A stretch of 59,416 nucleotides of DNA from a virus: positions 1 through 59,416 of the IMG/VR virus record IMGVR_UViG_3300025402_000010; one strand, given 5' to 3'. The notes under the pieces are model-generated. The model did not search any database. It was given only the letters and a program-made list of their open reading frames with translations, and was not told the DNA's origin. Positions 33,970-50,483 of the stretch are shown in pieces (the stretch's first letter is position 1; each line of letters starts with the position of its first letter). The translations under genes were made by a program, and so were the position numbers.

Positions 33970-33988
33970 ATAGTCCGGCTCATGCTAG

Positions 33989-36926: not shown

Positions 36927-36942
36927 TGTTTCACGTGAAACA
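36927..36942. other. parS: parS-like site 1
   Basis: TGTTTCACGTGAAACA, a perfect 16-bp palindrome identical to the chromosomal parS consensus bound by ParB/Spo0J proteins. The flank continues as TATG, which is mirrored at the second site. Confidence 0.8.
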
Positions 36943-36962: not shown

Positions 36963-36978
36963 TGTTTCACGTGAAACA
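36963..36978. other. parS: parS-like site 2
   Basis: A second perfect copy of TGTTTCACGTGAAACA, 36 bp from the first (start to start). The facing flanks (ACATATG and CATATGT) form a larger inverted repeat, so the pair is arranged symmetrically. No parB gene is seen in the window. Confidence 0.8.
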
Positions 36979-37237: not shown

Positions 37238-37279
37238 ATGTCTTAAAATTTTTATGTGTGTTTAGACACACATGACATC
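37238..37279. repeat. Nested inverted repeat
   Basis: GATGTC (37238-37243) pairs with GACATC (37274-37279), enclosing a perfect 8-bp stem ATGTGTGT/ACACACAT (37254-37261, 37266-37273) with a TTAG loop. It lies between the parS pair and the next gene and may be a terminator, operator or origin element. Confidence 0.55.
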
Positions 37280-37333
37280 CTCATATTCCTGCTCTAGTTG
37301 GATTTATATAGCAGGGGTATGGTTGTATATGTA

Positions 37334-37350
37334 CTTACTAAGTAAGTAAG
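37334..37350 (+). promoter_or_regulatory. AAGTA-loop hairpin 1
   Basis: CTTACT-AAGTA-AGTAAG, a 6-bp stem with the loop AAGTA, 27 nt before the ATG at 37378. First of eight such elements in the plus-strand block; stems differ while pairing is kept. Confidence 0.65.
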
Positions 37351-37377
37351 CTACAAATAGTATCAAAGGAATAACCC

Positions 37378-37596
37378 ATGGCAATAGTAACTGCCGAAGA
37401 GGTGCTGTCCAAAATATTGGCCAATGCCTGCCCTAGCAAACTACTCGATGGTGAGTACAAGTTGTTTCTCATAGAGACACACTGCGTCAATTGGCACGTG
37501 CAAGCCAAAATCATCCAAGAACCCTCGGACGACCAAGGTTGGTTGTTCGAAGTGCGTTCAATCGAGCCAGTAAACGAGGTGGTATATGATGACTGA
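37378..37596 (+). CDS. Small hypothetical protein
   Basis: A 72-residue acidic protein (MAIVTAEEVLSKILANACPSKLLDGEYKLFLIETHCVNW). AAAGGA lies 9 nt upstream. The end overlaps the next gene by 11 nt, so the two are translationally coupled. No family recognised. Confidence 0.6.
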   Translation: MAIVTAEEVLSKILANACPSKLLDGEYKLFLIETHCVNWHVQAKIIQEPSDDQGWLFEVRSIEPVNEVVYDD

Positions 37597-38074
37597 CCCT
37601 ATCCAGGCGTTGTTCGACCGCATCATGGAGGATGCACGTGATCAAAAGAGGGCAGAATCAAGTTATTACAACCTTGGTGACTTGATCGATGCCCTCGAGG
37701 GGATTGATTCAACTCTCCCCGTTGAGTTCACGTCAGCTGATAACAGGTACGGCAACGACCAACCAGGTGAGTTCTTCAGCTGGCGTGGTGACTACCACGA
37801 GCTTGCTCTTGGCTATTGCACCTCTAAGGTATACGACTGGAACACCAGTGAATACATCCCAGTTCCACCGCCCACCGTTGGTAGCTTGCTTGCTCGATGC
37901 ATTGCCGCTGATGGTGCTACCTTTGAGGGTTACAAGGGTGGTGACTTCACAATGAATCGGTCGTGCAGGATCTTTGTAGAGTTTGACCAGTCTTACTACA
38001 ATGGCCCGCAGATTGCTGATGTAACTGTGGTCGATGGCAAGTGCCTCATCAAGCTTGAGAACTGGACTGAGTAA
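37586..38074 (+). CDS. Hypothetical protein
   Basis: A 162-residue acidic protein with many Tyr and Asp residues (YYNLGDLIDALEGIDSTLPVEFTSADNRYGNDQPGEFFSWRGDYHELALGYC). A fairly compact alpha/beta sequence that recalls small phage proteins of unknown function. Two adjacent ATG codons are available; GAGGTGG lies upstream. Coupled to the previous gene. Confidence 0.65.
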   Translation: MMTDPIQALFDRIMEDARDQKRAESSYYNLGDLIDALEGIDSTLPVEFTSADNRYGNDQPGEFFSWRGDYHELALGYCTSKVYDWNTSEYIPVPPPTVGSLLARCIAADGATFEGYKGGDFTMNRSCRIFVEFDQSYYNGPQIADVTVVDGKCLIKLENWTE

Positions 38075-38076
38075 CA

Positions 38077-38244
38077 ATGTACCATCACTCAGCTCTATGC
38101 AAGTGTGGTGAGTATTACTTGCTTGATGTTTGTTGCGGTGAGTATGTTCGTCGAGTTTCTACTGACGAACTAATCAACGAAGTACATGTTGACATCGGAA
38201 ACCATGCACCTACTGGGTGCAACGATGAGTACCGCAACCATTAA
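38077..38244 (+). CDS. Small Cys-rich protein
   Basis: A 55-residue protein: MYHHSALCKCGEYYLLDVCCGEYVRR...APTGCNDEYRNH. The CKC and CC pairs could form a small metal site. It starts 2 nt after the previous stop, without a strong ribosome-binding site of its own, so it depends on coupling. Confidence 0.5.
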   Translation: MYHHSALCKCGEYYLLDVCCGEYVRRVSTDELINEVHVDIGNHAPTGCNDEYRNH

Positions 38245-38254
38245 GCAGTAACAA

Positions 38255-38269
38255 TACCCAAGTAGGGTA
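38255..38269 (+). promoter_or_regulatory. AAGTA-loop hairpin 2
   Basis: TACCC-AAGTA-GGGTA, 28 nt before the GTG start at 38298. It is followed by TAGTAAACAAACA and GGAG, a leader shared with hairpin 3. Confidence 0.7.
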
Positions 38270-38297
38270 GTAGTAAACAAACACATGGAGATCCCCT

Positions 38298-38735
38298 GTG
38301 GACATAGTAACACCAAGCAGTGCCCCCGACTCGTTCGGGTTCATACCAATAGATGCTGAGACCAGCACTGATAACGAGTACCAAAATTGGGTTAAATGCT
38401 TGTGCAAATGTGGCAACTGGTTTGAGCTGGACTTTGGTGACGAGACTACGGATTTGATTGTTCACCGCGAACGCCCAGGTAATGAAGCAGTTATCAGTAT
38501 TGTTCTTTCCAAGCCTGAGCTTGAGAAGTTGCTCGAGCTTGTGCAGAAAGCATTGGCTGGGCAACCAGAGGCTACAAAAGAACCAGACGAGAAAGAACCA
38601 TTTCATCCATATCCTGATGCTGTAGAAAAACATTACTGCAGTTATTGTGACTGTGAGTACTACAAGCTTGAGGATGGTACGATAACGCCTTGTTGTTGCA
38701 CTGATGATGAAACAATTGAACAGGAGGAATGTTGA
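38298..38735 (+). CDS. Acidic protein with two zinc-ribbon-like Cys clusters
   Basis: A 145-residue protein starting at GTG with GGAG 7 nt upstream. WVKCLCKCGNWFELDFG (near residue 33) resembles half a zinc ribbon, and HYCSYCDCEYYKLEDGTITPCCCTDDE (near 110-137) gives a second dense Cys set. The middle is helical (KPELEKLLELVQKAL). Function unknown. Confidence 0.6.
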   Translation: MDIVTPSSAPDSFGFIPIDAETSTDNEYQNWVKCLCKCGNWFELDFGDETTDLIVHRERPGNEAVISIVLSKPELEKLLELVQKALAGQPEATKEPDEKEPFHPYPDAVEKHYCSYCDCEYYKLEDGTITPCCCTDDETIEQEEC

Positions 38736-39013
38736 TGAGCAGAACACACATCAAACCAAAGTCCAAACTGTGGTGGAAAAAGGTTGCTGCTGCTTGGGAA
38801 GAGCAAGAGCGCCCGGATGCACCACACGCTGGTACTGCGTGGCCTAAGCAGATAGAGAAGCGGCACAGGAAGCGCACTCTACGAGCAGACAAGAAGGGTA
38901 ATCCCTTTCGTATCTGGTGGTCTGATGACCCACCCCAGAAGCCAGTGGCTCACAAATGGGAGCGTCGAGTACGTAAGCAACAGGTGCTACGTGAACAACT
39001 AGAGGAGGAATAA
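38735..39013 (+). CDS. Basic Trp-rich hypothetical protein
   Basis: A 92-residue strongly basic protein (KLWWKKVAAAWEEQERPD, RHRKRTLRADKKGNPFRIWW, RRVRKQQVLREQ). Its ATG overlaps the previous stop by one base (TGATG) with GGAGGA 8 nt upstream. The charge suggests nucleic-acid binding, but no fold was recognised. Confidence 0.6.
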   Translation: MSRTHIKPKSKLWWKKVAAAWEEQERPDAPHAGTAWPKQIEKRHRKRTLRADKKGNPFRIWWSDDPPQKPVAHKWERRVRKQQVLREQLEEE

Positions 39014-39222
39014 TGTTCATTGTTACTGAATACAACTACGATGAAAACATCGTGGGTGCGTATCATACTCTTGATGATGCTAAGGATATTATCCAAAGCA
39101 ACTTGCCAAGTTTAACTTGGGAATGGTTGGTTGACCCTATCAAACCAAAGAGGACATACGCATTGACTAACAAAGTCATACTCTTTGTTATCGATGAAGA
39201 AAACAGCTGGCCTGTTGATTGA
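39013..39222 (+). CDS. Small hypothetical protein
   Basis: A 69-residue acidic protein (MFIVTEYNYDENIVGAYHTLDDAKDIIQSNLP) with an alpha/beta look. Starts on the last base of the previous stop (TAATG), with GAGGAGGA upstream. Resembles the small FIVxxxxYDEN-type proteins common in phage operons; no specific family claimed. Confidence 0.6.
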   Translation: MFIVTEYNYDENIVGAYHTLDDAKDIIQSNLPSLTWEWLVDPIKPKRTYALTNKVILFVIDEENSWPVD

Positions 39223-39243
39223 TCTGATGTTCGCAGTACCAAT

Positions 39244-39258
39244 TACCCAAGTAGGGTA
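39244..39258 (+). promoter_or_regulatory. AAGTA-loop hairpin 3
   Basis: TACCC-AAGTA-GGGTA, identical to hairpin 2, 27 nt before the GTG start at 39286. The following leader (AACAAATAAACACAAGGAG) is close to that of hairpin 2, so the two leaders look duplicated. Confidence 0.7.
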
Positions 39259-39285
39259 GCAACAAATAAACACAAGGAGATTCTT

Positions 39286-39615
39286 GTGGAAGTAACAACA
39301 ACAAACAATGCCACCGGCTGGTTCGGTGGTTTGCCAGTAGGTAAGTGCACCCGCTGCCAGCAGGATATCAAGATGTACAGCGAGAATCAACCAAGGGACG
39401 GTATGCACTTGCGCTTGTTTGATGGCTACGGCATGTTCACTGACAGTTGGGAAAAACCGCTCGAGGACATCATCCTTTGCCACAATTGTGTTCTGTGGTT
39501 CTTGGAAGGTTTCCCAGAAGAATACAAGCAACAGTTCATAGGCGGTCACGGTCCTGGCGGTGATTGCTCACCTGCTTGCGAGTACGCATTCAATCTAAGA
39601 GAGGATATGCAATGA
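39286..39615 (+). CDS. Hypothetical protein with CxxC and CxxC pairs
   Basis: A 109-residue protein starting at GTG (AAGGAG 7 nt upstream). KCTRCQQDIKMYSE near residue 20 and ILCHNCVLWF near 64 form a likely C4 zinc site spanning about 45 residues. The C-terminal part has GPGGDCSPACEYAF. Partly related in layout to the product of 38298, which has the same leader. Confidence 0.6.
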   Translation: MEVTTTNNATGWFGGLPVGKCTRCQQDIKMYSENQPRDGMHLRLFDGYGMFTDSWEKPLEDIILCHNCVLWFLEGFPEEYKQQFIGGHGPGGDCSPACEYAFNLREDMQ

Positions 39616-39908
39616 AAGTATGGGCAGTAGATACAACGGTTAGTGCTCATGCCCATGAAGAGGGCATGAATATCCTATCCATTAAATGGTTTGGTTTCTT
39701 CAAGGAATTGAAGGATGCCCAAACTTCAGTGGAGCAGTGGTACTCAACCCTTCGGCCAGGCAAAAAAGTCTTGCCCATTGGCAAGGGATGGAGTCTTGAT
39801 GATGATGGCGATTACATTGCCTCGTTCATTGAGTATGACATCATCGACGGTGAGAAGATGAGTCAAGAAGCGCATGTAGTACGCATTTCCAAGCACAAAG
39901 TGCAGTAA
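39612..39908 (+). CDS. Small hypothetical protein
   Basis: A 98-residue protein (MKVWAVDTTVSAHAHEEGMNILSIKWFGFFKELKDA). Its ATG overlaps the stop of the previous gene (ATGA), with GAGGA upstream. No Cys, no membrane helix; a compact alpha/beta sequence. Function unknown. Confidence 0.6.
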   Translation: MKVWAVDTTVSAHAHEEGMNILSIKWFGFFKELKDAQTSVEQWYSTLRPGKKVLPIGKGWSLDDDGDYIASFIEYDIIDGEKMSQEAHVVRISKHKVQ

Positions 39909-39921
39909 CAAAGTAGTACCA

Positions 39922-39936
39922 GTAGCAAGTAGCTAC
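39922..39936 (+). promoter_or_regulatory. AAGTA-loop hairpin 4
   Basis: GTAGC-AAGTA-GCTAC, 24 nt before the ATG at 39961. The stem shares no sequence with hairpins 2 and 3 beyond the pairing pattern. Confidence 0.7.
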
Positions 39937-39960
39937 GCATTTAGTAGAAAGATACACGCC

Positions 39961-40431
39961 ATGAGTGATCTGTTTACAATCAACAACATAAATATGGAAG
40001 AGGGTGAGAACCTGTTTGAGCCTACTTGTTTCAAGTATCGCTTTGACAAGCTCTACCACTTCCACATGGCAGTCGTCGACTGCTGTGACGTATACGCAGC
40101 TGTGCTTATGCAAGCTGCTGAGGCAGGAGGTACATGGGAAATCAAACAGAACATACCAGTGCTGAGGGAAGACATTCCAGCATTGGACTTACGTGCGATC
40201 GATAACCCGCTTGACATTGTGCTGCAATACTTCCAGCGCCTCAAGCGTGACGTGCGTGATGGTCAACTTAACCTTGACATTACGCAATTGATTTCTTGTC
40301 AGGACATACCAGGCAAGATTGCGATGTCATTCAAGCACGTCTTGTTCAATCAAGGACAAGACTTGTTTAACCCACGGCTTCACGGTTGGGGTGACATCAA
40401 AACAATAGAAAGTGAGACATCATGTCACTAA
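39961..40431 (+). CDS. Hypothetical protein
   Basis: A 156-residue acidic protein (MSDLFTINNINMEEGENLFEPTCFKYRFDKLYHFHMAVVDCC), probably alpha-helical in its second half. GAAAGA precedes the ATG. The end overlaps the next start by 10 nt. No family recognised. Confidence 0.6.
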   Translation: MSDLFTINNINMEEGENLFEPTCFKYRFDKLYHFHMAVVDCCDVYAAVLMQAAEAGGTWEIKQNIPVLREDIPALDLRAIDNPLDIVLQYFQRLKRDVRDGQLNLDITQLISCQDIPGKIAMSFKHVLFNQGQDLFNPRLHGWGDIKTIESETSCH

Positions 40432-40700
40432 ACATACAACGACTCATCGATGCAGGGTTTACAGATGAAGACATCCGCGTTGTCTTTACTGCGTTTGAGA
40501 CAACGATGTCTGAAATGAACAAAGCAATTGAAGAGATGAAAGACAATCTTCCGTTCAGCGATGAGATGATAAAGGGAGCTAACAGACGTTCAGAAGAAAT
40601 TATTGAACGCATTAAGTTGTACAAACAACGTTCAACTAATGACATCGATCAACTCTTTGGCATCTGGGCACAGATGGCAATAAACGGTGACGCAGACTAA
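40422..40700 (+). CDS. Small helical hypothetical protein
   Basis: A 92-residue protein of two or three amphipathic helices (LIDAGFTDEDIRVVFTAFETTMSEMNKAIEEMKDNL), probably a coiled-coil dimer. Translationally coupled to the previous gene. Function unknown. Confidence 0.6.
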   Translation: MSLNIQRLIDAGFTDEDIRVVFTAFETTMSEMNKAIEEMKDNLPFSDEMIKGANRRSEEIIERIKLYKQRSTNDIDQLFGIWAQMAINGDAD

Positions 40701-40748
40701 CAGTTCTCAAGGCCTCACCACTCAACAGTGAGTGGTGGGGTCGAGACC

Positions 40749-40765
40749 GTAGCTAAGTAAGCTAC
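40749..40765 (+). promoter_or_regulatory. AAGTA-loop hairpin 5
   Basis: GTAGCT-AAGTA-AGCTAC, a perfect 6-bp stem, 26 nt before the ATG at 40792. A stem CTCACCACTC/GAGTGGTGGG-type hairpin lies just before it (40713-40740) and may end the upstream transcript. Confidence 0.7.
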
Positions 40766-40791
40766 AAATTACCAAGTAACAAGGAGTTACA

Positions 40792-41094
40792 ATGGCTATT
40801 TCAATGAAGCAAGCAGCACCAGCACCAGCTGCGCAGGGTTCAACCATAAGTAAGTTGTTCCAGGAACGTCGTCTGACGCTCATGGAAAACCCTGGTGTGT
40901 GGTACGAATACAGCAACAATCTGCGAGCTAACACCATGGGAAGCGTTCTTTCCAGCCTTTGTGGTGTCAAGCTCCCTGCTTTAAAGGGAATTGATCGTAA
41001 GCTGTTGCCCTACCAGGTGGCATCACGACGTATGGAAGACGGGACCTATTCGGTCTTTGCTCGTTACGTGGGTGAACAACAAGAGTGGGTATAG
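40792..41094 (+). CDS. Hypothetical protein
   Basis: A 100-residue basic protein (MAISMKQAAPAPAAQGSTISKLFQERRLTLMENPGVWYEYSNNLRANTMG). AAGGAG lies 6 nt upstream. The short Ala/Pro start may be a flexible arm and the rest a small alpha/beta domain. No family recognised. Confidence 0.6.
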   Translation: MAISMKQAAPAPAAQGSTISKLFQERRLTLMENPGVWYEYSNNLRANTMGSVLSSLCGVKLPALKGIDRKLLPYQVASRRMEDGTYSVFARYVGEQQEWV

Positions 41095-41105
41095 CCCCGC
41101 TACTG

Positions 41106-41128
41106 TGTGTGGAACCTAACTCCACACA
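41106..41128 (+). terminator. 8-bp hairpin after 100-aa gene
   Basis: TGTGTGGA (41106-41113) pairs perfectly with TCCACACA (41121-41128) around ACCTAAC, 12 nt after the stop codon. No long U-run. A second stem GGTGGGA/TCCCACC (41156-41181) follows and ends 25 nt before the start at 41207, the spacing seen for AAGTA hairpins. Confidence 0.45.
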
Positions 41129-41206
41129 TATCACGCACGTAATGTAAACTGGCTTGGTGGGAGCCAGCACAGAATCCCACCATCTAACATGAAAGGTACA
41201 AGGTAC

Positions 41207-41758
41207 ATGCGTAAACTGACAAGTTTGCTGTTGCTGAGTGCTTTTATTGTTGTCGGTGTTGATGTTAATAGCATTGGCGATAAGGGGCATGCTCCAAACG
41301 CCAGTGTCTATGTGACACCAAGGTTACCTGCTCCCGCATTTCAGGTGCAGGATGTCACGATGGCTAATATTCAAGCATACGTGATGAGCCAACCACGTGT
41401 GGTTGTTGAACCTACGCAACGATGGAACACTAAGCGCAGTGACCCAACAGCAACATGGCCTGATGCTACTGACCCAACGCGGCGATTGCCGATGGCAGTG
41501 CAAGTTAAGTTTGCTTGCATTCGTTATCACGAGAGCCGCAACCATCTACATTCTGTTGAGATACACAGTGGTGCTGGTGGTTGGTATCAGTTCATCCCAT
41601 ACATTTGGGATTATGCAAGGGCGAACATACCTGGTTTACCAGCGTTAGCTTCACAAGCTACCGGTGATGAACAATCTAAGGTAGCAATGTGGTATTACAA
41701 ACGTAACAACGGATTCACTCCCGAGTGGAGTGCAGACGCAGGCGTTTGCAACCTGTAA
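41207..41758 (+). CDS. Secreted transglycosylase-like (Rpf/lysozyme-type) protein
   Basis: A 183-residue protein. MRKLTSLLLLSAFIVVGVDVNS is a good signal peptide. After a Pro/Thr-rich linker, the C-terminal domain (about residues 96-183) has FACIRYHESRNH with the presumed catalytic Glu109, then GAGGWYQFIPYIWDYARA and EQSKVAMWYYKRNNGFTPEW, the layout of resuscitation-promoting-factor or soluble-lysozyme transglycosylase domains. Cys104 and a Cys near the C-terminus may form a disulphide. Such enzymes cut peptidoglycan glycan strands; export by the host during infection might remodel the wall or serve lysis. An in-frame ATG at 41189 overlaps the ribosome-binding site and is less likely. Confidence 0.75.
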   Translation: MRKLTSLLLLSAFIVVGVDVNSIGDKGHAPNASVYVTPRLPAPAFQVQDVTMANIQAYVMSQPRVVVEPTQRWNTKRSDPTATWPDATDPTRRLPMAVQVKFACIRYHESRNHLHSVEIHSGAGGWYQFIPYIWDYARANIPGLPALASQATGDEQSKVAMWYYKRNNGFTPEWSADAGVCNL

Positions 41759-41815
41759 GTTATACAGGCGGTATGGGCTCCACCGTGACGGGCCTACTCA
41801 CCCAAGGAGGGCATT

Positions 41816-42127
41816 GTGATTGAATCAATTGACAATTTATCAATGAGCAAAGAACTTATTGAACGTTGGCAACACGTTGAACAAGCACTTACTGAGTGTT
41901 TGGAGCTAGCATTAAAAGAATCAAATGGTCAAGAAGATGTATGGATTCCTGATTGGGCTGTGCCTCTTTTTGAAAGAATGCAGGAAAACACTGATGAAAA
42001 CACTGATGACAATCAGGATGCACGTATCCAAGCTGCGTTGAAAGATTATCAGGAGAATCCTGAAGAGTACACATACGCTGACCTTGAAGCTATCTTTGAG
42101 GACCGTGACCCAGTGGAGTTTCTTTAA
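41816..42127 (+). CDS. Acidic helical hypothetical protein
   Basis: A 103-residue protein starting at GTG with AAGGAGGG 6 nt upstream. Helical and acidic (LSMSKELIERWQHVEQALTECLELALKESNGQEDVWIPDWAVPLFERMQ), with a Gln/Asp/Asn-rich middle. No known family. Confidence 0.6.
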   Translation: MIESIDNLSMSKELIERWQHVEQALTECLELALKESNGQEDVWIPDWAVPLFERMQENTDENTDDNQDARIQAALKDYQENPEEYTYADLEAIFEDRDPVEFL

Positions 42128-42128
42128 C

Positions 42129-42386
42129 ATGAGTATTACAAACACAATCTCAGGAAATTACTTGGACTTTGAATCCAAGTGCCAATGCGGCGACGAACGA
42201 TGCCACAGTTTGTGGGTTGGCAATGGCACACCACAATTGGATGGCAGTCTTGAGTTTGTTTCAATTGCACCGAATAAAGAAAATGGTGAAGGCGTAATGC
42301 TTCACTTTTCTCAGGTTCTTGAACTGTACAAGAAACTAGATCAGTTTGTTGCATCAGTTAAGTACCACGGTACAGAAAACAGGTAG
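42129..42386 (+). CDS. Small hypothetical protein with CxCxxxxC
   Basis: An 85-residue protein: MSITNTISGNYLDFESKCQCGDERCHSLWVGN, where three Cys and one His may form a metal site. It starts 1 nt after the previous stop. The remainder is beta-rich and then helical (QVLELYKKLDQFV). The arrangement resembles the N-terminal part of the 38298 product. Function unknown. Confidence 0.55.
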   Translation: MSITNTISGNYLDFESKCQCGDERCHSLWVGNGTPQLDGSLEFVSIAPNKENGEGVMLHFSQVLELYKKLDQFVASVKYHGTENR

Positions 42387-42397
42387 CAACAAGCAGG

Positions 42398-42419
42398 GCC
42401 GGGTGTTGTACTGCCCGGC
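42398..42419 (+). terminator. GC-rich hairpin
   Basis: GCCGGG (42398-42403) and CCCGGC (42414-42419) pair around a 10-nt loop, 11 nt after the stop codon at 42386. It adjoins the much longer hairpin that starts at 42419. A likely transcript end, though the U-run is missing. Confidence 0.5.
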
Positions 42420-42472
42420 TACTGCGATGTATACACGAGCAATCATGGCTGTTCGTGTATACATCGGAGTAG
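42419..42472. repeat. Long inverted repeat, 19 pairs with one mismatch
   Basis: CGATGTATACACGA (42425-42438) is matched perfectly by TCGTGTATACATCG (42453-42466) with a 14-nt loop. Beyond a single G-G mismatch, CTACT (42419-42423) pairs with AGTAG (42468-42472). It is the longest uninterrupted stem seen in the window and lies between two genes, so it may be a bidirectional terminator, an operator or an RNase III-type processing site. Confidence 0.65.
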
Positions 42473-42529
42473 TCATAAACCCTGCTACTCTGTATCAAAT
42501 TAGTAAGGGCAAACATCAAGGAGAAATCC

Positions 42530-42976
42530 ATGAGCGTTAACAACATGAGTCAGATTATTAAGAACGTGCTGGAAGTTACAGACACGGTTCTTGAACGTCC
42601 TGCTACTCGCAACGAAGTAATCAAGGTGCTCGAGCTCATCGAATCATTTAAGATGGGCAAGACAATTGACAACGCACTTCCAATGCCAACACCACAGCCA
42701 GTGGATGTTGTCAAGGTTGAACGCAAGAAGCCAATGCGTCCAGCAACCAGCATTCGTTGGAAGCAGCACAAGGAATGGCTTGACGCTATTCTTGACGGTC
42801 AGCCGCACATCATTCCGTATTCCAACCTTGAATTGGTGATCCCATTCAAGAAGTTTGGTAACGACAACATGCGCACTCGACTGTACCGTGAGGCTGTCAA
42901 GCGTGGTTACAAGACAGCGACTATCTCATTCGACAACAAGTCGAAGTCGTTGTTTGTGCAGGCTGTAGCCAAGTAA
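42530..42976 (+). CDS. Hypothetical protein, possible DNA-binding
   Basis: A 148-residue basic protein. The N-terminal part is helical (MSQIIKNVLEVTDTVLERPATRNEVIKVLELIESF), followed by a Pro/Val linker and a basic C-terminal half (RKKPMRPATSIRWKQHKEWLDAILDG... TRLYREAVKRGYKTATIS) that looks like a winged-helix or similar nucleic-acid-binding region. CAAGGAG lies 7 nt before the ATG. Directly followed by the tRNA gene. Function unknown. Confidence 0.6.
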   Translation: MSVNNMSQIIKNVLEVTDTVLERPATRNEVIKVLELIESFKMGKTIDNALPMPTPQPVDVVKVERKKPMRPATSIRWKQHKEWLDAILDGQPHIIPYSNLELVIPFKKFGNDNMRTRLYREAVKRGYKTATISFDNKSKSLFVQAVAK

Positions 42977-42982
42977 CAGGTC

Positions 42983-43053
42983 ACTGCAGTAGCTCAATGG
43001 TAGAGCAACCTGGTTAACCAGGTAGGTTGTGGGTTCGATTCCCACCTGCAGTA
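42983..43053 (+). tRNA. tRNA with irregular anticodon loop, possibly Asn (GUU)
   Basis: Acceptor stem ACTGCAG/CTGCAGT, D-arm GCTCAATGGTAGAGC and T-arm GTGGG-TTCGATT-CCCAC are all perfect. The anticodon arm ACCTG-GTTAAC-CAGGT has a loop of only six bases, so the anticodon cannot be read in the usual way; GTT (Asn), TAA (Leu) and AAC (Val) are all conceivable. The arm is a 16-bp palindrome. It may be a non-standard tRNA or tRNA-like element. Confidence 0.7.
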
Positions 43054-43082
43054 CGGTTCACATACCAACCCAGGTATGTGCC

Positions 43083-43100
43083 CGGTGTTCCCAAGCACCG
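43083..43100 (+). promoter_or_regulatory. Leader hairpin of the MoxR gene
   Basis: CGGTG (43083-43087) pairs with CACCG (43096-43100) around TTCCCAAG, ending 23 nt before the ATG at 43124 and followed by TTAAACACAGGGAG. Spacing and following sequence match AAGTA hairpin 6 (ATTAAACATTGGGAG), but the loop differs. Confidence 0.5.
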
Positions 43101-43123
43101 TTAAACACAGGGAGAAACATATT

Positions 43124-45345: not shown

Positions 45346-45383
45346 TACAAAGTCTTTGAGTAACTAGATACTCAAGTCACTGG

Positions 45384-45412
45384 GTGTAGTCACACACGTA
45401 TGAGGTGTGACT
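45384..45412 (+). terminator. Perfect 10-bp hairpin after VWA gene
   Basis: GTAGTCACAC pairs with GTGTGACTAC around ACGTATGAG. An earlier stem TTGAGTA/TACTCAA lies about 30 nt upstream. These follow the VWA stop codon and precede AAGTA hairpin 6, so they probably mark the end of the MoxR-VWA transcript. Confidence 0.5.
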
Positions 45413-45421
45413 ACACCCGGA

Positions 45422-45438
45422 TGCACCAAGTAGGTGCA
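45422..45438 (+). promoter_or_regulatory. AAGTA-loop hairpin 6
   Basis: TGCACC-AAGTA-GGTGCA, a perfect 6-bp stem, 23 nt before the ATG at 45462. Followed by ACATTAAACATTGGGAG. Confidence 0.75.
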
Positions 45439-45461
45439 ACATTAAACATTGGGAGATAATC

Positions 45462-45839
45462 ATGGAAGATTTCAACTTCGGTGACCTTACCCTCGACGAA
45501 GCAACAGTTTCACGTGTTGCTCATGCAGAGTTTCTTAACTCTATTAAAGAATGGGGTTCCAAGATGGGCATGGTATTACAGCCCTTCATTGGTGTAGCCA
45601 ACATTCTTATGGAGGATGAGATTCCAGAAGATCAGTTGGACAAAATTTCTGTTGCGTTCCCACTTGGTTTGCGCCTTGCGCTTAACCACATGAACTCTCT
45701 GTATGACATCATGCAGAAGGAAGCAATCAAGGTACTCGGTGCACCTTTTGCTATCCACGGTGAGCACCACCCAGAGTGCGATGGCACCAAGGATGGCTGT
45801 GGTCACCAGGACCACTGGCTAGAGAAGGAAGGAGAGTAG
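45462..45839 (+). CDS. Hypothetical protein with C-terminal His/Cys cluster
   Basis: A 125-residue acidic, mainly helical protein. The end IHGEHHPECDGTKDGCGHQDHW has four His and two Cys in 20 residues and very likely binds a metal ion. GGGAG lies 7 nt before the ATG. No family recognised. Confidence 0.65.
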   Translation: MEDFNFGDLTLDEATVSRVAHAEFLNSIKEWGSKMGMVLQPFIGVANILMEDEIPEDQLDKISVAFPLGLRLALNHMNSLYDIMQKEAIKVLGAPFAIHGEHHPECDGTKDGCGHQDHWLEKEGE

Positions 45840-45840
45840 T

Positions 45841-46008
45841 ATGAACGAAGCAGAAGCTTACAAAGAGTTAAGCCTTAATCTACTGTACGTAATTGAGGAG
45901 ATTGTTGACGCGCTCAAACCTATTGGTCTTGACTTGTCTTCATTGCCTCACTACGAAGAGATGATTAACAATGCCCGCGCAGTATTGGGTGATAGCTCTA
46001 ACGACTAA
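45841..46008 (+). CDS. Small acidic helical protein
   Basis: A 55-residue protein (MNEAEAYKELSLNLLYVIEEIVDALKPIG...YEEMINNARAVLGDSSND). It starts 1 nt after the previous stop, with AAGGAGAG upstream in the end of that gene. Probably a small helical bundle. Last gene before the structured RNA region. Confidence 0.55.
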   Translation: MNEAEAYKELSLNLLYVIEEIVDALKPIGLDLSSLPHYEEMINNARAVLGDSSND

Positions 46009-46717
46009 CTCCACGCGTTTCTCACAAGTGTAGTTAGTAACAACGCGCAGTGTATGGTGATGCCCGTCAATTATCATGTAGATAATAGCACCAGCCTCTT
46101 ACCATTGCATTGCACAACGCAGCATAAGGTATGAAGCTTATGTAGTGGTGGTCCAGTAACACTTAAAACTGGGATGCGCGGTCGTGCTATGGACCCAAAA
46201 AGCATAGCGGTGTCATCCACCCCTTAACGGATGAGCCTATACATTATTCATTTGATGTATAGGCGCTGTCCAATGGTGGCGCTGGACGAAGCACCCACCC
46301 GCTAGCAACGTACTGCTAAACTCAGCACATGGGGGAAGCCGGTGCAGGAAAGTGGTGGATGCCTATTTAAAGAACACACGCAGAGGAGCGACAGAATCCA
46401 TACTTATCGGTTGGAAGGAAGAGTAACCGTTGTGCAAGGGAGCGCGTGTACGGTGAAGACGCTCACACCACCTGGACATGTGGTTAAACTGTCCCTTTTC
46501 TTGTTAGCAATGATGTACCGGCTTATGAGCCCATGAGATCATTATTTAACGGACTCACCATAAGGGGAAGTTTATGGAGGTAACCTGAAGCCTACTGAAT
46601 AGATGGGGTAACCAGCACTCAGTCTGGACTGCTACACCGAGGGCGCGGTGTGTAGGGTATGGGTTCCACCCGAACTTCCAACGGGCCCACACAACCCACT
46701 AGTAAGAAAGAAGCATC
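46009..46717 (+). ncRNA. Candidate large structured non-coding RNA
   Basis: About 700 bases without a credible gene but dense in stems: ATTATC/GATAAT (46070-46086), CATAAG/CTTATG (46123-46142), CCAGT/ACTGG (46153-46172), GCTATG/CATAGC (46186-46208), the perfect 10-bp GCCTATACAT/ATGTATAGGC (46235-46264), GTCCA/TGGAC, an outer AAGGGA/TCCCTT enclosing GAGCG/CGCTC and ACCAC/GTGGT (about 46436-46496), CCATAA/TTATGG (46558-46577) and ACACCG/CGGTGT near 46640. The size, multi-branched layout and a tRNA gene in the same block recall the large ornate RNAs of phages (GOLLD and ROOL classes), but membership was not tested. The true ends are unknown. It has a higher GC content than the adjoining genes. 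Confidence 0.6.
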
Positions 46718-46960
46718 ATGCAAATTGAATGTAATCAGCAAGGGCCTAACTTGCAAATCAACATCACGTTTGATGAACCTGAACAGTCACGTATTTTTCA
46801 TGAAAAGTTTAATAAAATGCTTGAAGATTTGGCTAATGAAATGAATGGCATGATGCTGACTGTTGATGGTGACAACCAAGAAATTAATAAAGAAGTAGCC
46901 AAGAAAGCTATGGAAGAAGCAATTAATATGTTTGTACCTAAGGAGAATAATGGTAGATAG
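46718..46960 (+). CDS. Small acidic hypothetical protein
   Basis: An 80-residue protein (MQIECNQQGPNLQINITFDEPEQSRIFHEKFNKMLEDLANEMNGMML). AAGAAAG lies about 8 nt upstream. From here to about 50.5 kb codons become AT-rich, unlike the block at 33-36 kb. No family recognised. Confidence 0.55.
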   Translation: MQIECNQQGPNLQINITFDEPEQSRIFHEKFNKMLEDLANEMNGMMLTVDGDNQEINKEVAKKAMEEAINMFVPKENNGR

Positions 46961-47360
46961 ACAATTACAATGGAGACGTTCTTATGCGTATGATGATTTA
47001 ATTTGGACAGCAAAAACTAAACCAGATAATCGTTGGTATGCGCACAGAGTAGATTTATCTTTTACTTTGAAAGCTGGTTTTCACGGTGGCATTGTTAATA
47101 AAAATGCTGTTCTTATAGTTAAAAAATGTGCTGAGGGTAAAAAAGTAGCTAACATTGTTGTTATGAAAAAAGAATTTATAAACAGTTATATTGCAAAATC
47201 TTTTTTAGATTCTTTGTTGTATGCTTCAACTATTATGTTTGATACAGTTGAAAAAGGAGAAGAATGGTTCCTTAAACAATTGAATGATTATAAAGATGCT
47301 CCACCACCAGAACAAAGAACTTCTTTGCCAAGTTCAATTAGTGCTGGTTACCCAATCTGA
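46950..47360 (+). CDS. Basic hypothetical protein
   Basis: A 136-residue protein (MVDRQLQWRRSYAYDDLIWTAKTKPDNRWYAHRVDLSFTLKAGF). The ATG at 46950 has AAGGAGA 4 nt upstream and overlaps the previous gene; a TTG at 46932 is less likely. Composition is Lys-rich and AT-biased. The layout resembles the product of 48177 (a basic domain with a ...FLxxxLxx ending), but no family is assigned. Confidence 0.6.
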   Translation: MVDRQLQWRRSYAYDDLIWTAKTKPDNRWYAHRVDLSFTLKAGFHGGIVNKNAVLIVKKCAEGKKVANIVVMKKEFINSYIAKSFLDSLLYASTIMFDTVEKGEEWFLKQLNDYKDAPPPEQRTSLPSSISAGYPI

Positions 47361-47406
47361 TAATTGACCGTTTATCAGGTAAAACAACAAGGTCAGAAAG
47401 AATATC

Positions 47407-47796
47407 ATGGATAATGAAATCCAATTGTCAGATGAAGTAAAGCTTGCAATTATCAAGAAAGAACTATTAAACCTAGTTGATATTGTAAAAGTATTATTCA
47501 CTGTTAACACAACTCTTGAAGTTCACAGACAAGAGTTAACAGGTGAAATTCCTGAACAATTTAAGGAATTAATTGAATCAGATATATACAAAAAATCTAT
47601 TCCTCTTGCTATCAATGCAAGTAATGAATTGCTTAATAATCTTGTTGTGTTTACTAATAATTTAGCAGGTGTATTTGATATTGATTTTATATCACAGTTA
47701 CCTACTAATGAACAAGAATTTCTTAATATGAATAAAACAATGCATAAAGATTTAGAAAATAAAGTAATGCGTGAGTATGGTTGGGAGACCGAATGA
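47407..47796 (+). CDS. Helical hypothetical protein
   Basis: A 129-residue mainly helical protein (MDNEIQLSDEVKLAIIKKELLNLVDIVKVLFTVNTTLEVHRQEL). AGAAAG lies upstream, preceded by a stem CTGATAA/TTATCAG (47357-47379) that follows the previous stop. The stop overlaps the next ATG (ATGA). Confidence 0.6.
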   Translation: MDNEIQLSDEVKLAIIKKELLNLVDIVKVLFTVNTTLEVHRQELTGEIPEQFKELIESDIYKKSIPLAINASNELLNNLVVFTNNLAGVFDIDFISQLPTNEQEFLNMNKTMHKDLENKVMREYGWETE

Positions 47797-47978
47797 TTGA
47801 TTTAACTAGTAAGATTATTGCTTACGAGCAAGATGAGCTCAGCTATGAGGAGACAGTTGAACTGTTCCAAGAGCTTATTGATAACGGTATGGCCTGGCGT
47901 TTGCAAGGTCATTACGGTCGTATGGCAATAGCACTCATTGAGAGTGGTGACTGCACCCCAAGTAAGGAGAATGTATGA
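47793..47978 (+). CDS. Small conserved-type phage protein
   Basis: A 61-residue protein: MIDLTSKIIAYEQDELSYEETVELFQELIDNGMAWRLQGHYGRMAIALIESGDC. Short proteins with IAYExGEL...LFQxLIDxGxAWxLQGxYGR are frequent in actinophages; the function is not known. ATGA overlap with the previous gene fixes the start. Confidence 0.7.
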   Translation: MIDLTSKIIAYEQDELSYEETVELFQELIDNGMAWRLQGHYGRMAIALIESGDCTPSKENV

Positions 47979-48109
47979 GTGATATTCCAAGAGAAGAAGT
48001 GATTGAGATGCTTACGCATATTGAGATGCTTCTTCTTGCAATGCAGGATCAGGATGCGTGGTCGTATACACACATCCTGCTTAAAGCCATCAAGGATGGT
48101 GAGTATTAA
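47975..48109 (+). CDS. Very small helical protein
   Basis: A 44-residue protein (MSDIPREEVIEMLTHIEMLLLAMQDQDAWSYTHILLKAIKDGEY). The ATG overlaps the previous stop (ATGA), and AAGGAGA lies 8 nt upstream. The short length limits confidence. Confidence 0.45.
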   Translation: MSDIPREEVIEMLTHIEMLLLAMQDQDAWSYTHILLKAIKDGEY

Positions 48110-48124
48110 TACGCAAGTAGCGTA
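48110..48124 (+). promoter_or_regulatory. AAGTA-loop hairpin 7
   Basis: TACGC-AAGTA-GCGTA, immediately after the stop codon at 48109. It is 52 nt before the GTG at 48177, farther than the others, but otherwise typical. Confidence 0.65.
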
Positions 48125-48176
48125 GGTAGAGTTGACCGTCTGCCATTATTAATAGGTCAAATGAGAAAGGTAACCT

Positions 48177-48791
48177 GTGTCAAAAGACATGGTTTGGCTT
48201 AAGAAAAAGGACGGTAGAGGTTGGACTTCCAACCGTACCCGTGACGTGATTGACTATGCTTTCACGGTAAGTAACAATACGCCATGCAAAGTTGAGATAA
48301 GAAAATCATGGCGACCAAATGGTAGAGCTAACAATACGTTTGCTAGCTTGACGTTTGAAACTCCTGAGATTGCTAAAGCAACTATTGAGCACTTAGTTAA
48401 TACAGTGCGTGATTGCTTTGACACTCAGACTGAAGGACGTAAATGGTTCTTGGAAACCATGCTTGCTAAGTGTGTTGACGATGGCCGTGCAGAAGTATGG
48501 ATGCCTAACTCTAGCAACACTAGTAGTGTTCGGGTAGGCAAGATGGGGTATACTCCACCTGCTACTCCACCGCCATTAACTGCTATTACTCCACCTCGTG
48601 TAATAGCACCAACCTGGCCAGCTAAACCAACAGCAGAAGATGTTGAAGAGATGATTAATATCATTACTGAAACATCTAGTGCAACTGATGAAGCGACTGT
48701 TGAACCTGAGATTGTTGAACCTGTAGTTGTTCAGCAACCTAAAACCATTGTTATCAATGGTAAAGAAATTCAAATCGGCTGGCCTCAGTAG
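48177..48791 (+). CDS. Hypothetical protein with Pro-rich linker
   Basis: A 204-residue protein starting at GTG (AGAAAGG 6 nt upstream). Residues 1-115 form a basic domain (MVWLKKKDGRGWTSNRTRDVIDYAFTVSNNTPCKVEIRKSWRP), then a Pro/Thr-rich stretch (YTPPATPPPLTAITPPRVIAP), an acidic helical part and a short tail (KTIVINGKEIQIGWPQ) that could be a binding peptide. No family recognised. Confidence 0.65.
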   Translation: MSKDMVWLKKKDGRGWTSNRTRDVIDYAFTVSNNTPCKVEIRKSWRPNGRANNTFASLTFETPEIAKATIEHLVNTVRDCFDTQTEGRKWFLETMLAKCVDDGRAEVWMPNSSNTSSVRVGKMGYTPPATPPPLTAITPPRVIAPTWPAKPTAEDVEEMINIITETSSATDEATVEPEIVEPVVVQQPKTIVINGKEIQIGWPQ

Positions 48792-48860
48792 TAAATGTAG
48801 TAAGCACCTGGGTATGTGTCTAAACTGCCCACTTAAACCCACAAACAGTTAGGATACAAA

Positions 48861-49253
48861 ATGAAGTATGCAATTACAGTTACCGCAGAAAACAAGCTTG
48901 ACATCATTGATTTTGATGAATCTAAATCATATGAAACAATCAAAGCAGCTATTGGAGGCGGTACAATTCAATGCATTCACATACCATCATTGGATGTTGA
49001 CATGTGGATTGATGACGAAGGTAAGTTGGTTAATGAACCAGTAATCAATGCGTTTGGTTCTGCACTATGGGTTGACTCATATGGTATGACTGATCTTATT
49101 GTTGGTGACATCATTGTTACTGGTGGTGTTGATGATGAAGGTCATACACTTGGTCTTACGTTTGATAAAGCCGCTAATGTTTACAAGCGAGTTCATGAAG
49201 TTATGAAAAAAGCAATTGCAGAAGATAATGAAATTGAAACCGTAACCAAGTAA
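48861..49253 (+). CDS. DUF3846-like protein
   Basis: A 130-residue acidic protein. IGGGTIQCIHIPSLDVDMWIDDEGKLVNEPVINAFGSALW followed by DLIVGDIIVTGGVDDEGHTLGLT matches the layout of the DUF3846 family, small proteins widespread in phages of actinobacteria and firmicutes and without known function. TTAGGA is upstream of the ATG. Confidence 0.65.
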   Translation: MKYAITVTAENKLDIIDFDESKSYETIKAAIGGGTIQCIHIPSLDVDMWIDDEGKLVNEPVINAFGSALWVDSYGMTDLIVGDIIVTGGVDDEGHTLGLTFDKAANVYKRVHEVMKKAIAEDNEIETVTK

Positions 49254-49266
49254 GAAAGGAACATAC

Positions 49267-49908
49267 ATGCCCAATCATGTATACAATTCAGTAACATTAA
49301 CCGGTAGCTTTAGAGACCTTACAAGGTTAAAAATGCTACTTAACATGCCTCATGAATGTCAACATGTTCATAATGATACTGATATTTCACAGTTTAATTT
49401 TTTCAGTTTACTAGCACCAGATAAATCTGTATGGGATGAATACTATGGTGAAGAACCTAGTTATAAAGACCTTGCAGAAAGAGTGCGCCATTCTACTAAT
49501 CATTGGTACGATTGGAACGTTCGTAACTGGGGTACTAAATGGAATGCTTATGACATTGATTACTCAGATACATTTGACAATGATGACATTGATAATAACC
49601 AACACAGTATTAGTTATCATTTTAATACTGCTTGGTCACCACCATATGGTATCATTACTGCTCTTTCTAAAAAGATTGAAGAGCTTAAATTAAACGTTAC
49701 GTTTAGTTGGCACTACGAAGAAGAGCAGGGTTGGGGTGGTGAATTTGAATACGATGGCAACACATTAAGTGTTGTTGGAGAGTGGGATATACCCGCAAGC
49801 CATGCTGATTATCAATCACGAGACAAGGTAGAAAATTGTGTTTGTAGTTGGTCAGACGACATGGATGATTGGTTTGAGGATTGTCCTCGACCAGAAGAAA
49901 GTAAGTAA
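49267..49908 (+). CDS. Api92-like protein (DUF1281-type ferredoxin fold)
   Basis: A 213-residue protein. It starts MPNHVYNSVTLTG, contains WYDWNVRNWGTKWNAYD and YHFNTAWSPPYGIITALSKK, then a WHYEEEQGWGGE segment. This series is the signature of a family of phage and plasmid proteins predicted to have a ferredoxin-like fold; their role is unknown. AAGGAAC lies before the ATG. Confidence 0.75.
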   Translation: MPNHVYNSVTLTGSFRDLTRLKMLLNMPHECQHVHNDTDISQFNFFSLLAPDKSVWDEYYGEEPSYKDLAERVRHSTNHWYDWNVRNWGTKWNAYDIDYSDTFDNDDIDNNQHSISYHFNTAWSPPYGIITALSKKIEELKLNVTFSWHYEEEQGWGGEFEYDGNTLSVVGEWDIPASHADYQSRDKVENCVCSWSDDMDDWFEDCPRPEESK

Positions 49909-49913
49909 ATAAT

Positions 49914-50462
49914 ATGGGACTTGATCAGTATCTATACGGTGTTCAGGCACACCCTGATAACACTGATTTTGATGTATCACCAGAAGCTAAGTACCTTGGC
50001 ATCTCTACTTGGCGTAAGCACCCTAACCTTGAAGGTTGGATGGAAAAGCTATTCAATATTAAAGCTGATGCTCAAGGTTATAAAGGTCAAACAGATTTTC
50101 CTGACTCTGTAATTGCTAAGGTTGTTGGTAAGATTGATGAAGATAAAGTTACTCCTGAGTTGCTTGAACAAGCATCTATGCAAGATGATATGCAACAACT
50201 AATTCTTGAACAACAATATATATCTGCTACTGCATCTCTTAATAAGAAACGTATGTTTAACAACCAGTATTTAAAGTTGAACATGGGTGATCTTGATCAA
50301 CTAGAGATGGCAGTTAAGTTAAGTGAATTGCCACCAACAACAGGGTTTTTCTTTGGTGATGACTCTAGTGATGAGTACAAGGAACAAGACCTAGCAGTTA
50401 TTGAAATTGCCCGTGATGCTATTAGGCATGGGGTTGATGTCTACTACCGCAGTTCGTGGTAG
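49914..50462 (+). CDS. Phage protein of the MGLDxYL type
   Basis: A 182-residue protein with an N-terminal MGLDQYLYGV...STWRKHPNLEGWMEKLF and a C-terminal TGFFFGDDSSDEYKEQDLAVIEIARDAI. Proteins starting MGLDMYL and carrying a WRKxxxxxxW pattern are common in phages, with unknown function. It follows 5 nt after the Api92-like gene. Confidence 0.65.
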   Translation: MGLDQYLYGVQAHPDNTDFDVSPEAKYLGISTWRKHPNLEGWMEKLFNIKADAQGYKGQTDFPDSVIAKVVGKIDEDKVTPELLEQASMQDDMQQLILEQQYISATASLNKKRMFNNQYLKLNMGDLDQLEMAVKLSELPPTTGFFFGDDSSDEYKEQDLAVIEIARDAIRHGVDVYYRSSW

Positions 50463-50466
50463 AAAC

Positions 50467-50483
50467 GTTAGCAAGTAGCTAAC
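50467..50483 (+). promoter_or_regulatory. AAGTA-loop hairpin 8
   Basis: GTTAGC-AAGTA-GCTAAC, a perfect 6-bp stem, 29 nt before the ATG at 50513. Followed by GCAGTAAACAAACAGTAAGGA, close to the leader after hairpin 2. Confidence 0.75.

Follow-up and report, generated by a model that had tools for sequence, protein, structure and literature searches.

Eight hairpins with an AAGTA loop, found in an uncultured actinobacterial phage, are well supported by sequence comparison as functional RNA leader elements, because the copies covary, their stems are conserved above the flanking sequence, orthologous genes retain the hairpin with differing stems, and relatives couple it to devices that work only as RNA (truncated tRNAs and hammerheads). 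The first-pass annotation had proposed either a functional RNA or an oriented DNA operator. The data support the first of these and not the second, as the stems have no common sequence and GNRA loops substitute in relatives.

A family of leader hairpins in the non-structural arm

The window, the whole stretch of DNA analysed, comprises positions 1 to 59,416 of IMG/VR virus record IMGVR_UViG_3300025402_000010 (59,416 nucleotides). The AAGTA hairpins sit within a long rightward operon and are restricted to the non-structural arm. They and the structures adjoining them are as follows.

37334..37350, + strand: leader hairpin CTTACT[AAGTA]AGTAAG, 27 nt upstream of ATG 37378
38255..38269, + strand: leader hairpin TACCC[AAGTA]GGGTA, 28 nt upstream of GTG 38298
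39244..39258, + strand: leader hairpin TACCC[AAGTA]GGGTA, 27 nt upstream of GTG 39286; L002 copy identical
39922..39936, + strand: leader hairpin GTAGC[AAGTA]GCTAC, 24 nt upstream of ATG 39961; L002 loop AAATA
40705..40746, + strand: strong helix of 14+ bp, stopping 2 nt short of the 40749 hairpin (fold and direct reading)
40749..40765, + strand: leader hairpin GTAGCT[AAGTA]AGCTAC, 26 nt upstream of ATG 40792
45382..45418, + strand: 14-bp helix, stopping 3 nt short of the 45422 hairpin (fold and direct reading)
45422..45438, + strand: leader hairpin TGCACC[AAGTA]GGTGCA, 23 nt upstream of ATG 45462; L002 loop AAATA
48110..48124, + strand: hairpin TACGC[AAGTA]GCGTA, at the position of stem III of type II hammerheads in G002, G004 and G005
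48125..48159, + strand: second stem GGTAGA/TCTGCC with pseudoknot, upstream of GTG 48177
50467..50483, + strand: leader hairpin GTTAGC[AAGTA]GCTAAC, 29 nt upstream of ATG 50513

All eight hairpins were recovered where the first-pass annotation had placed them, with the same perfect 5-6 bp stems and exclusively on the coding strand (8 copies, against 0 on the minus strand). Dinucleotide-preserving shuffles of the window gave a mean of 0.06 AAGTA hairpins with at least 5 pairs (maximum 1 in 300), and shuffles of the 37-51 kb region gave an expectation of 0.018; no 5-6 nt loop of any sequence exceeded 3 copies in shuffled DNA. The fixed spacing was likewise borne out, with 7/8 hairpins ending 23-29 nt upstream of a start codon, a distance shared by 2/59 of the remaining hairpins with 5-nt loops in that arm. 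Every copy occupies an intergenic gap of at least about 50 nt, and tight gene junctions have none. Two copies (38255 and 39244) have the same stem, with little stem repetition otherwise, and the claimed covariation among copies is strong, with two-sided changes in 6/6 pairs, 90% of cells pairing versus 52% when shuffled. The similar A-rich leader that had been reported behind several copies is exact after 38255 and 50467 and approximate after 39244.

The one copy outside the common spacing is that at 48110, which ends 52 nt before its start codon. It is the first arm of a larger junction and no plain hairpin, since it is followed by the second stem and a pseudoknot in which TGACC (48133-48137) pairs with GGTCA (48155-48159). 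Predicted stabilities of the eight hairpins are weak, at -3.4 to -8.4 kcal/mol; this is modest for end protection alone, and pure stability leaves the presence of AAGTA in all eight loops unexplained. Intrinsic termination was rejected as a function, the stem being followed at none of the eight sites (+ strand) by a U-tract but by A-rich sequence.

Stems are frozen and loops differ between phages

Conservation at short range was measured against a single genome with 85% identity to the window. Across seven sites, 0/76 stem bases are changed, and the sole changes within hairpins are G to A at loop position 3, at three sites; the leaders are 73-83% identical at 6/7 sites. The loop had been called invariant, and it is so within the window phage. 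It is not so in relatives, which carry AAATA, AGGTA, AAGTT, AGGTT, GGGA, GTGA or GAAA, each phage having its own preference (AAGTA/AAATA; GGGA/GTGA; AAGTT/AGGTT/AGGTA; GAAA). GGGA, GTGA and GAAA are GNRA loops, and in G007 a TCCC/GGGA stem closes a GAAA loop where others have AAGTA. Loops of the GNRA/ARRTW class are enriched in the leaders of the window (p = 9e-7) and of the more distant relatives, at 50-66% (odds ratio 3.8, p = 8e-4); in the other phages, 38/50 leader hairpins with at least 5 pairs and a 4-5 nt loop fall outside this class. Because the loop is uniform within each phage, the pattern suggests a putative trans-acting reader. One candidate for this reader, a basic 94-aa protein (38729-39013), was set aside, as no homologue was found in relatives. 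Neither a 38% homologue nor DNA or protein similarity among annotated phages yielded any new relative.

Truncated tRNAs precede the hairpin in relatives

The leader of the gene for a MoxR-type ATPase combines a hairpin, for which a different loop had correctly been noted, with a tRNA look-alike.

42983..43054, + strand: tRNA-shaped RNA upstream of the MoxR gene, with acceptor, D and T arms intact and the anticodon loop collapsed (CCTGG TTAA CCAGG)
43059..43080, + strand: hairpin CACATACC[AACCCA]GGTATGTG, separating the pseudo-tRNA from the MoxR leader hairpin
43083..43100, + strand: leader hairpin CGGTG[TTCCCAAG]CACCG, 23 nt upstream of ATG 43124 (MoxR-type ATPase)

ARAGORN reports a 2-nt 'anticodon' for the element at 42983; the actual structure, the same in L002, is a 4-nt TTAA loop on a 5-bp stem, and a 7-nt anticodon loop able to decode is absent. 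In the G002 counterpart, the anticodon arm is entirely lost. Relatives carry a truncated tRNA-like structure of this kind, consisting of a 7-bp acceptor, a GG-containing linker and a canonical T-arm without an anticodon arm. In 16 distinct modules, a small hairpin follows 2-3 nt downstream, and then the A-rich leader and the start; at orthologous genes in the 50-66% relatives, the loop of this hairpin is AAGTA, ARGTW or GNRA. A script for such truncated tRNAs gave 21 matches on the coding strand, of which one is a likely false positive and three in L037 duplicate L039, compared with 0 on the opposite strand and 0.4 in shuffled DNA. The match at G001 116800 was taken as the false positive because no leader stands behind it.

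The acceptor and T-arm form a 12-bp helix with compensatory changes in 10/12 pairs, and the tRNA T-arm invariants are retained. The truncated tRNAs of relatives thus have the coaxial helix and T-loop invariants expected of RNase P and RNase Z substrates. When the G002 copies were withheld, the resulting covariance model still recovered them, at 38, 37, 24, 21 and 20 bits. Since the anticodon is lost whereas the acceptor, the D-loop GG and the T-arm are kept, the tRNA-like elements point to probable recognition by tRNA-processing enzymes, not to decoding. At the window's own AAGTA sites, neither the script nor the covariance model found a truncated tRNA.

Hammerheads and exchange of forms at orthologous genes

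At gathering level, tRNAs were the sole Rfam matches in the window and the first relatives. A permissive Rfam search revealed type II hammerheads in relatives, on the coding strand and approximately 20-80 nt upstream of genes. Stems I and III of these ribozymes are hairpins, stem II is short and loop I takes part in a pseudoknot; the small hairpin serves as stem III. One copy (G009:16578-16639) scores 40 bits, above the gathering cut-off of 37 for the type II hammerhead (RF02276); all others lie below it (24-36.7 bits), including those in G010 at 36.7, 35.5, 31.5 and 27.9 bits. The hammerhead core (CUGANGA and GAA, A15.1-U16.1, H17) is present in relatives, for example GAA-ACGCC-GGGA-GGCGT-A/...CTGACGA at G009 3366 (reverse complement) and CTGATGA at G008 10207, and several further copies have an altered core. 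At 48110 of the window the catalytic core is absent, ATTATTAATAG replacing CTGATGA and AAT replacing GAA, and there is no Rfam match.

The exchange of forms is seen directly at orthologous genes. Across genomes, the gene at 48177 is preceded by a hairpin with junction, a hammerhead or a tRNA-like element with hairpin, as alternatives, and orthologues of the gene at 50513 have the hairpin alone or a truncated tRNA plus hairpin. The window sites have no identified cutting device; the AAGTA sites have neither truncated tRNA nor hammerhead core, and it is the orthologous sites that connect the hairpin with processing. In the distant, cultured Gordonia phage Pupper and Mycobacterium phage Pleione, we found no hammerhead and no convincing truncated tRNA.

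A tentative model and its alternatives

We tentatively favour, as a close call, a reading in which the hairpin is part of leader modules that separate cistron blocks and provide processed, capped 5' ends. The AAGTA hairpin would be the final structured piece of a modular untranslated leader of a small cistron block, in the order RNA processing device, small hairpin with an ARRTW or GNRA loop, A-rich unpaired spacer, Shine-Dalgarno sequence and start. Host RNase P and RNase Z would cut the truncated tRNAs, and the hammerheads would cleave themselves; together these cuts would split the polycistronic transcript into blocks. After RNase Z cleavage, one or two nucleotides would separate the hairpin from the newly made 5' end, and there the hairpin may block 5'-end-dependent decay and shield the A-rich ribosome entry site from structures upstream. 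In the lineage of the window, all that most sites have kept is the hairpin, joined in a few places by strong helices or by a pseudo-tRNA, so that there the hairpin would mark and protect 5' ends made otherwise, or act solely as a cistron insulator. Cleavage, capping and a loop-binding protein are thus what we infer from the observed anatomy, conservation and exchange of three forms.

It is somewhat unlikely, in our judgement, that a phage or host RNA-binding protein recognises the loop and, independently of 5'-end processing, switches the translation (or antitermination) of a small-gene regulon or boosts it. Eight identical loops in one phage and own preferred loops in relatives are what co-evolution with a reader predicts, the stems are weak and unconstrained in sequence, the hairpins are limited to the non-structural arm, and AARTA may fit the A-N-R-N-A scheme of GNRA-like pentaloops, by analogy with the structure of lambda boxB. 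However, no reader protein was identified, boxA is missing near the hairpins and boxA-like octamers are not in excess, there is a separate copy for many blocks, unlike nut sites, and another cause would have to account for the company of truncated tRNAs and hammerheads. We consider a purely passive role quite unlikely, in which the hairpin would be a short insulating structure that keeps upstream RNA and upstream ribosomes off the unpaired A-rich landing site of non-coupled cistrons. Such a role would suit the confinement of hairpins to gaps of about 50 nt or more, ahead of the first gene of coupled blocks, their place where the footprint of a ribosome would be expected to end, with the unpaired A-rich leader next, and the hairpins with other loops in many other leaders; it explains neither the identity of the loop nor how exactly the hairpin fits behind the 3' ends of truncated tRNAs, and a hairpin of -3 to -5 kcal/mol presents a weak barrier.

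Action at the level of DNA, as an operator or as a hairpin promoter served by an N4 virion-type phage RNA polymerase, is highly improbable. N4-type promoters are short hairpins upstream of the start site, and the copies here are indeed oriented and at a fixed distance upstream of genes. But the loops have 5 or 4 nt, not 3, stems and flanks have no sequence in common, promoter-like sites are at chance level, and the partner devices (tRNA-like and hammerhead) function solely as RNA; in addition, the group's eight records, which may be incomplete and in which the control was also silent, contain no match to PF00940 (single-subunit RNA polymerase). Several similar copies in one region, two with the same stem, might recall a functionless mobile palindrome spread by copy-and-paste. 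Nearly all stems differ and yet pair, their position before starts is fixed, and the relative keeps the stems frozen amid a diverging background, a conservation pattern that in practice refutes this reading and leaves it a negligible probability.

Relation to known systems

No description of the AAGTA hairpin or of the truncated-tRNA leader was found in the literature, so for these the first-pass view that no equivalent had been described stands; it does not extend to hammerheads flanking phage genes or to start-associated repeats of cluster K mycobacteriophages. Perreault et al. 2011 (PMC3088659) propose that the hammerheads near prophage genes divide long transcripts into mRNAs of gene length. 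Type II copies, genuine or nearly so, stand upstream of genes in the relatives too; the difference is that 48110 has no catalytic core and none of the remaining seven AAGTA hairpins is a hammerhead, and exchange with truncated tRNAs at the same genes does not appear in the accessible part of the paper. Mitochondrial polycistronic RNA is punctuated by tRNAs (PMC8348895, PMC4394434), and the logic that we propose is the same: intergenic tRNA shapes would show RNase P and RNase Z where to cut. The phage tRNAs differ in being reduced to acceptor, D-loop remnant and T-arm, non-decoding, and followed by a dedicated hairpin and leader, and their cleavage is predicted.

The cluster K repeats (PMC3203893) precede a subset of translation starts, about half of them with inverted repeats; SAS consists of 13 bp of conserved sequence, and ESAS is an inverted repeat of 17 bp, likewise conserved, whose spacer varies. 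They resemble the present hairpins as pre-start repeats restricted to the non-structural half of an actinophage genome, but here stems vary and the loop is conserved, and the 13-bp SAS GGGATAGGAGCCC has 7 weak matches in the window versus 7.0 expected, none at hairpins.

Elements of the lambda boxB type have a 5-bp stem and a 5-nt, possibly GNRA-like loop that is phage-specific, all of which recalls the AAGTA hairpins. These differ in their many copies on one operon and in a loop that begins with A, not G (AAGTA, not GNRNA); no N-like protein is shown, and boxA-like sites are at chance, with none beside a hairpin on the + strand. Bacterial Y RNAs mimic tRNA through tRNA-like domains bound by Ro/Rsr, and Pleione encodes a Ro (TROVE) protein. 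This reading was dropped, with no TROVE protein in any of the group's eight records and multiple short leader copies instead of one Y RNA.

Implications

The hairpin, the tRNA look-alikes and the ribozymes suggest a kit that splits a long viral message into protected gene messages. It is possible, if on the doubtful side, that this amounts to viral tRNA punctuation in a clade of actinobacterial myophages. The polycistronic message of their non-structural genes would be cut by three interchangeable RNA devices (tRNA mimics that lack an anticodon, as substrates of host RNase P and RNase Z; self-cleaving hammerheads; structured junctions), and every 5' end so created would receive a small hairpin with a loop recognised by a factor specific to the phage. 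If true, these phages would split and cap mRNAs with RNA devices that are interchangeable at a given gene over evolutionary time, with hammerheads, tRNA remnants and plain hairpins joined in one job. It would also mean that, in a DNA virus of bacteria, tRNA mimicry has been pared to elbow and acceptor as a gene-expression signal, which would account for the broken-anticodon tRNA-like sequences in phage genomes and provide a rule for annotating elements that escape tRNA finders.

Leader hairpins in the window

The first-pass annotation described eight hairpins with an AAGTA loop on the coding strand between 37334 and 50483, and direct inspection of the sequence bears out their coordinates, stems and loop. 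A search of the window found no AAGTA hairpin on the opposite strand, and shuffled controls give 0.06 per window, compared to the 8 present. All eight lie within true intergenic gaps, 5' of the first gene in a coupled block. The proposed spacing to the start codon holds for seven, which end 23-29 nt upstream, while the remaining one ends 52 nt upstream; only 2 of the 59 other hairpins with 5-nt loops in the same arm have the 23-29 nt spacing. Stem covariation was likewise recovered, with two-sided changes at 6/6 stem positions in an alignment of the window, its relative L002 and three related hairpins.

Leaders are 73-83% identical between the window and its nearest relative (100% for the MoxR leader), and the first 120 coding bases behind them are 62-97% identical. 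At seven orthologous leaders, comparison with this one close relative shows 0/76 stem bases changed; the sole hairpin changes are three G to A substitutions, all at loop position 3. Frozen stems, together with changes confined to this position, show that both stem strands and four of the five loop positions are constrained.

The canonical bacterial parS site TGTTTCACGTGAAACA occurs twice without mismatch in non-coding DNA upstream of the operon (36927-36942 and 36963-36978, 36 bp apart). Three copies are present in relative G009 (L045 16199, 16372 and 16456) and none in the other records searched; the phage may borrow host ParB. Further upstream in the same arm (33676-33970) is a low-complexity, repetitive Ala/Lys/Glu-rich ORF with gctgctaaggctg-type repeats.

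Relatives of the window

This 59-kb viral fragment encodes WhiB and a MoxR-type ATPase. The portal proteins of Bxz1-like (cluster C) mycobacteriophages and of Gordonia phage Pupper share approximately 39% identity with its own. Phages of the annotated collection yielded no close DNA match to the window and no homologue of its 487-aa VWA-like protein, a label that is a sequence reading, the Pfam search giving no match. IMG/VR viral contigs with this protein are L002/G001 (85%), G002/G003 (53%), G004-G006 (50-51%) and G007 (38%). G008 and G009 were recruited via another gene (57-66%), and L037 and L039/G010 via a DNA pattern; genes in relatives were called with a simple script.

Truncated tRNAs precede small hairpins

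Leaders of G002, G004, G005, G008, G009 and G010 are occupied by truncated tRNAs, in which a 7-bp acceptor is joined through a GG-containing linker of 10-19 nt to a 5-bp T-stem with a TTCRANN loop, without an anticodon arm. A script run over 533 kb found 21 matches, on the coding strand only, compared to 0.4 in shuffled DNA. Of these, one is probably spurious, three in L037 duplicate L039, and one (G002 5402, 5' of MoxR) has a different structure behind it; 16 distinct modules of truncated tRNA plus small hairpin remain. Compensatory changes occur in 10/12 helix pairs, and the canonical tRNA invariants G53, T54, T55, C56, R57, A58 and C61 are kept. A covariance model of twelve copies, built without those of G002, recovers the left-out G002 copies, and has no match in the window or in Pupper. 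The module order is truncated tRNA, 2-3 nt, small hairpin, A-rich leader, Shine-Dalgarno and start.

Small hairpins behind truncated tRNAs
ARRTW-type loops, TCCC/GGGA stem: TCCC[AAGTA]GGGA, TCCC[AGGTA]GGGA, TCCC[AAGTT]GGGA, TCCC[AGGTT]GGGA
Longer stem: CTTGC[AAGTT]GCAAG
GGGA loop: TGCC[GGGA]GGCA, TGTC[GGGA]GACA, ACGTC[GGGA]GACGT
Other loops: TCCC[TTATG]GGGA, CCTCA[TAA]TGAGG

In the distant G007, a TCCC[GAAA]GGGA hairpin is preceded by a 12-bp minihelix.

The MoxR leaders grade from a tRNA into a truncated tRNA, with acceptor and T-arm retained throughout. In the window, the anticodon loop of the tRNA at 42983 is 4 nt long, making decoding impossible, and L002 is identical in this respect; the G008 tRNA has a differing anticodon arm with a 5-nt loop; before the same gene in G002, the arm is wholly lost.

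Window positions 37238-37280, 5' of the first AAGTA leader, read GGATGTC ... ATGTGTG TTTAGA CACACAT GACATCC, a 7-bp acceptor-like helix beside a 7-bp arm that recalls the truncated tRNAs but lacks the T-loop sequence.

Hammerhead-like elements

Coding-strand elements resembling type II hammerheads are present in some leaders of G001, G002, G005, G008, G009 and G010. A single copy (G009, 40 bits) passes the Rfam cut-off and the others score 24-36.7 bits; several have an intact core and a loop I pseudoknot, and many have GGGA or GTGA as stem III loop. At the site preceding the 48177 gene of the window, G002, G004 and G005 have a hammerhead-like element, and G009 and G010 a truncated tRNA with an AAGT[AT] hairpin. 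The window and G001 have the AAGTA hairpin there, followed by a second stem and pseudoknot (TGACC/GGTCA) resembling those of G002 and G005. This element is hammerhead-like in placement and shape but reads ATTATTAATAG at the CTGATGA position, so that, judged from its sequence, it should not cut.

Other copies with core changes are L003 13151 (TTGATAA), L031 10633 (TTGACAA), L002 14262 (TTGACGA), and L003 14232 and L030 11020 (both CCGATGA). The C3-G8 pair becomes U3-A8 in two, and U4 becomes C in others; these elements may lack activity or may be naturally occurring variants of the core.

A proposed shared role at mRNA 5' ends

Truncated tRNA, hammerhead and hairpin/junction are three RNA devices that stand in for each other before the same genes, each with a small hairpin of the same kind next to or within it. 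RNase P and RNase Z have established recognition properties, against which the retention of elbow and acceptor can be read. Loss of the anticodon with elbow and acceptor kept fits recognition by these enzymes, and cleavage is predicted. An RNase Z cut 3' of the discriminator would place the 5' end of the mRNA one or two nucleotides before the hairpin. After hammerhead cutting, the upstream RNA would be capped at its 3' end by stem III, and the downstream RNA would begin with stem I. Perreault and colleagues (PMC3088659) proposed transcript splitting for phage hammerheads and observed in vitro cleavage of tandem constructs. Apart from the pseudo-tRNA, the window's own sites offer as candidate cutting devices only two long helices, each ending 2-3 nt 5' of a hairpin:

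40705-40746, long helix
45382-45418, long helix

A near-perfect hairpin of >20 bp (42418-42473), far stronger than the leader hairpins, separates the gene ending at 42386 from that starting at 42530, and is possibly terminator-like or an RNase III site.

The ARRTW/GNRA loop class is enriched in leaders (window, p = 9e-7; independent relatives, p = 8e-4), and AARTA, written A-N-R-N-A, might, as a structural guess, form a GNRA-like pentaloop. Loops are mostly uniform inside one phage and differ between phages, and so look as if they co-evolved with a trans-acting reader. This is the main rival to 5' end capping, with which it is also compatible. Between two of the hairpins (38729-39013), the window encodes a strongly basic 94-aa protein (24 K/R versus 13 D/E), speculatively a candidate RNA-binding protein; no homologues were detected in the relatives. 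In the distantly related mycobacteriophage Pleione (NC_023737.1), a gene for an RNA-binding protein of the TROVE (Ro) type (129632-131290) lies downstream of two tRNAs.

For the three devices together, the simplest shared role would be to define where the RNA of each cistron block begins and to shield that 5' end, while keeping the ribosome entry site free.
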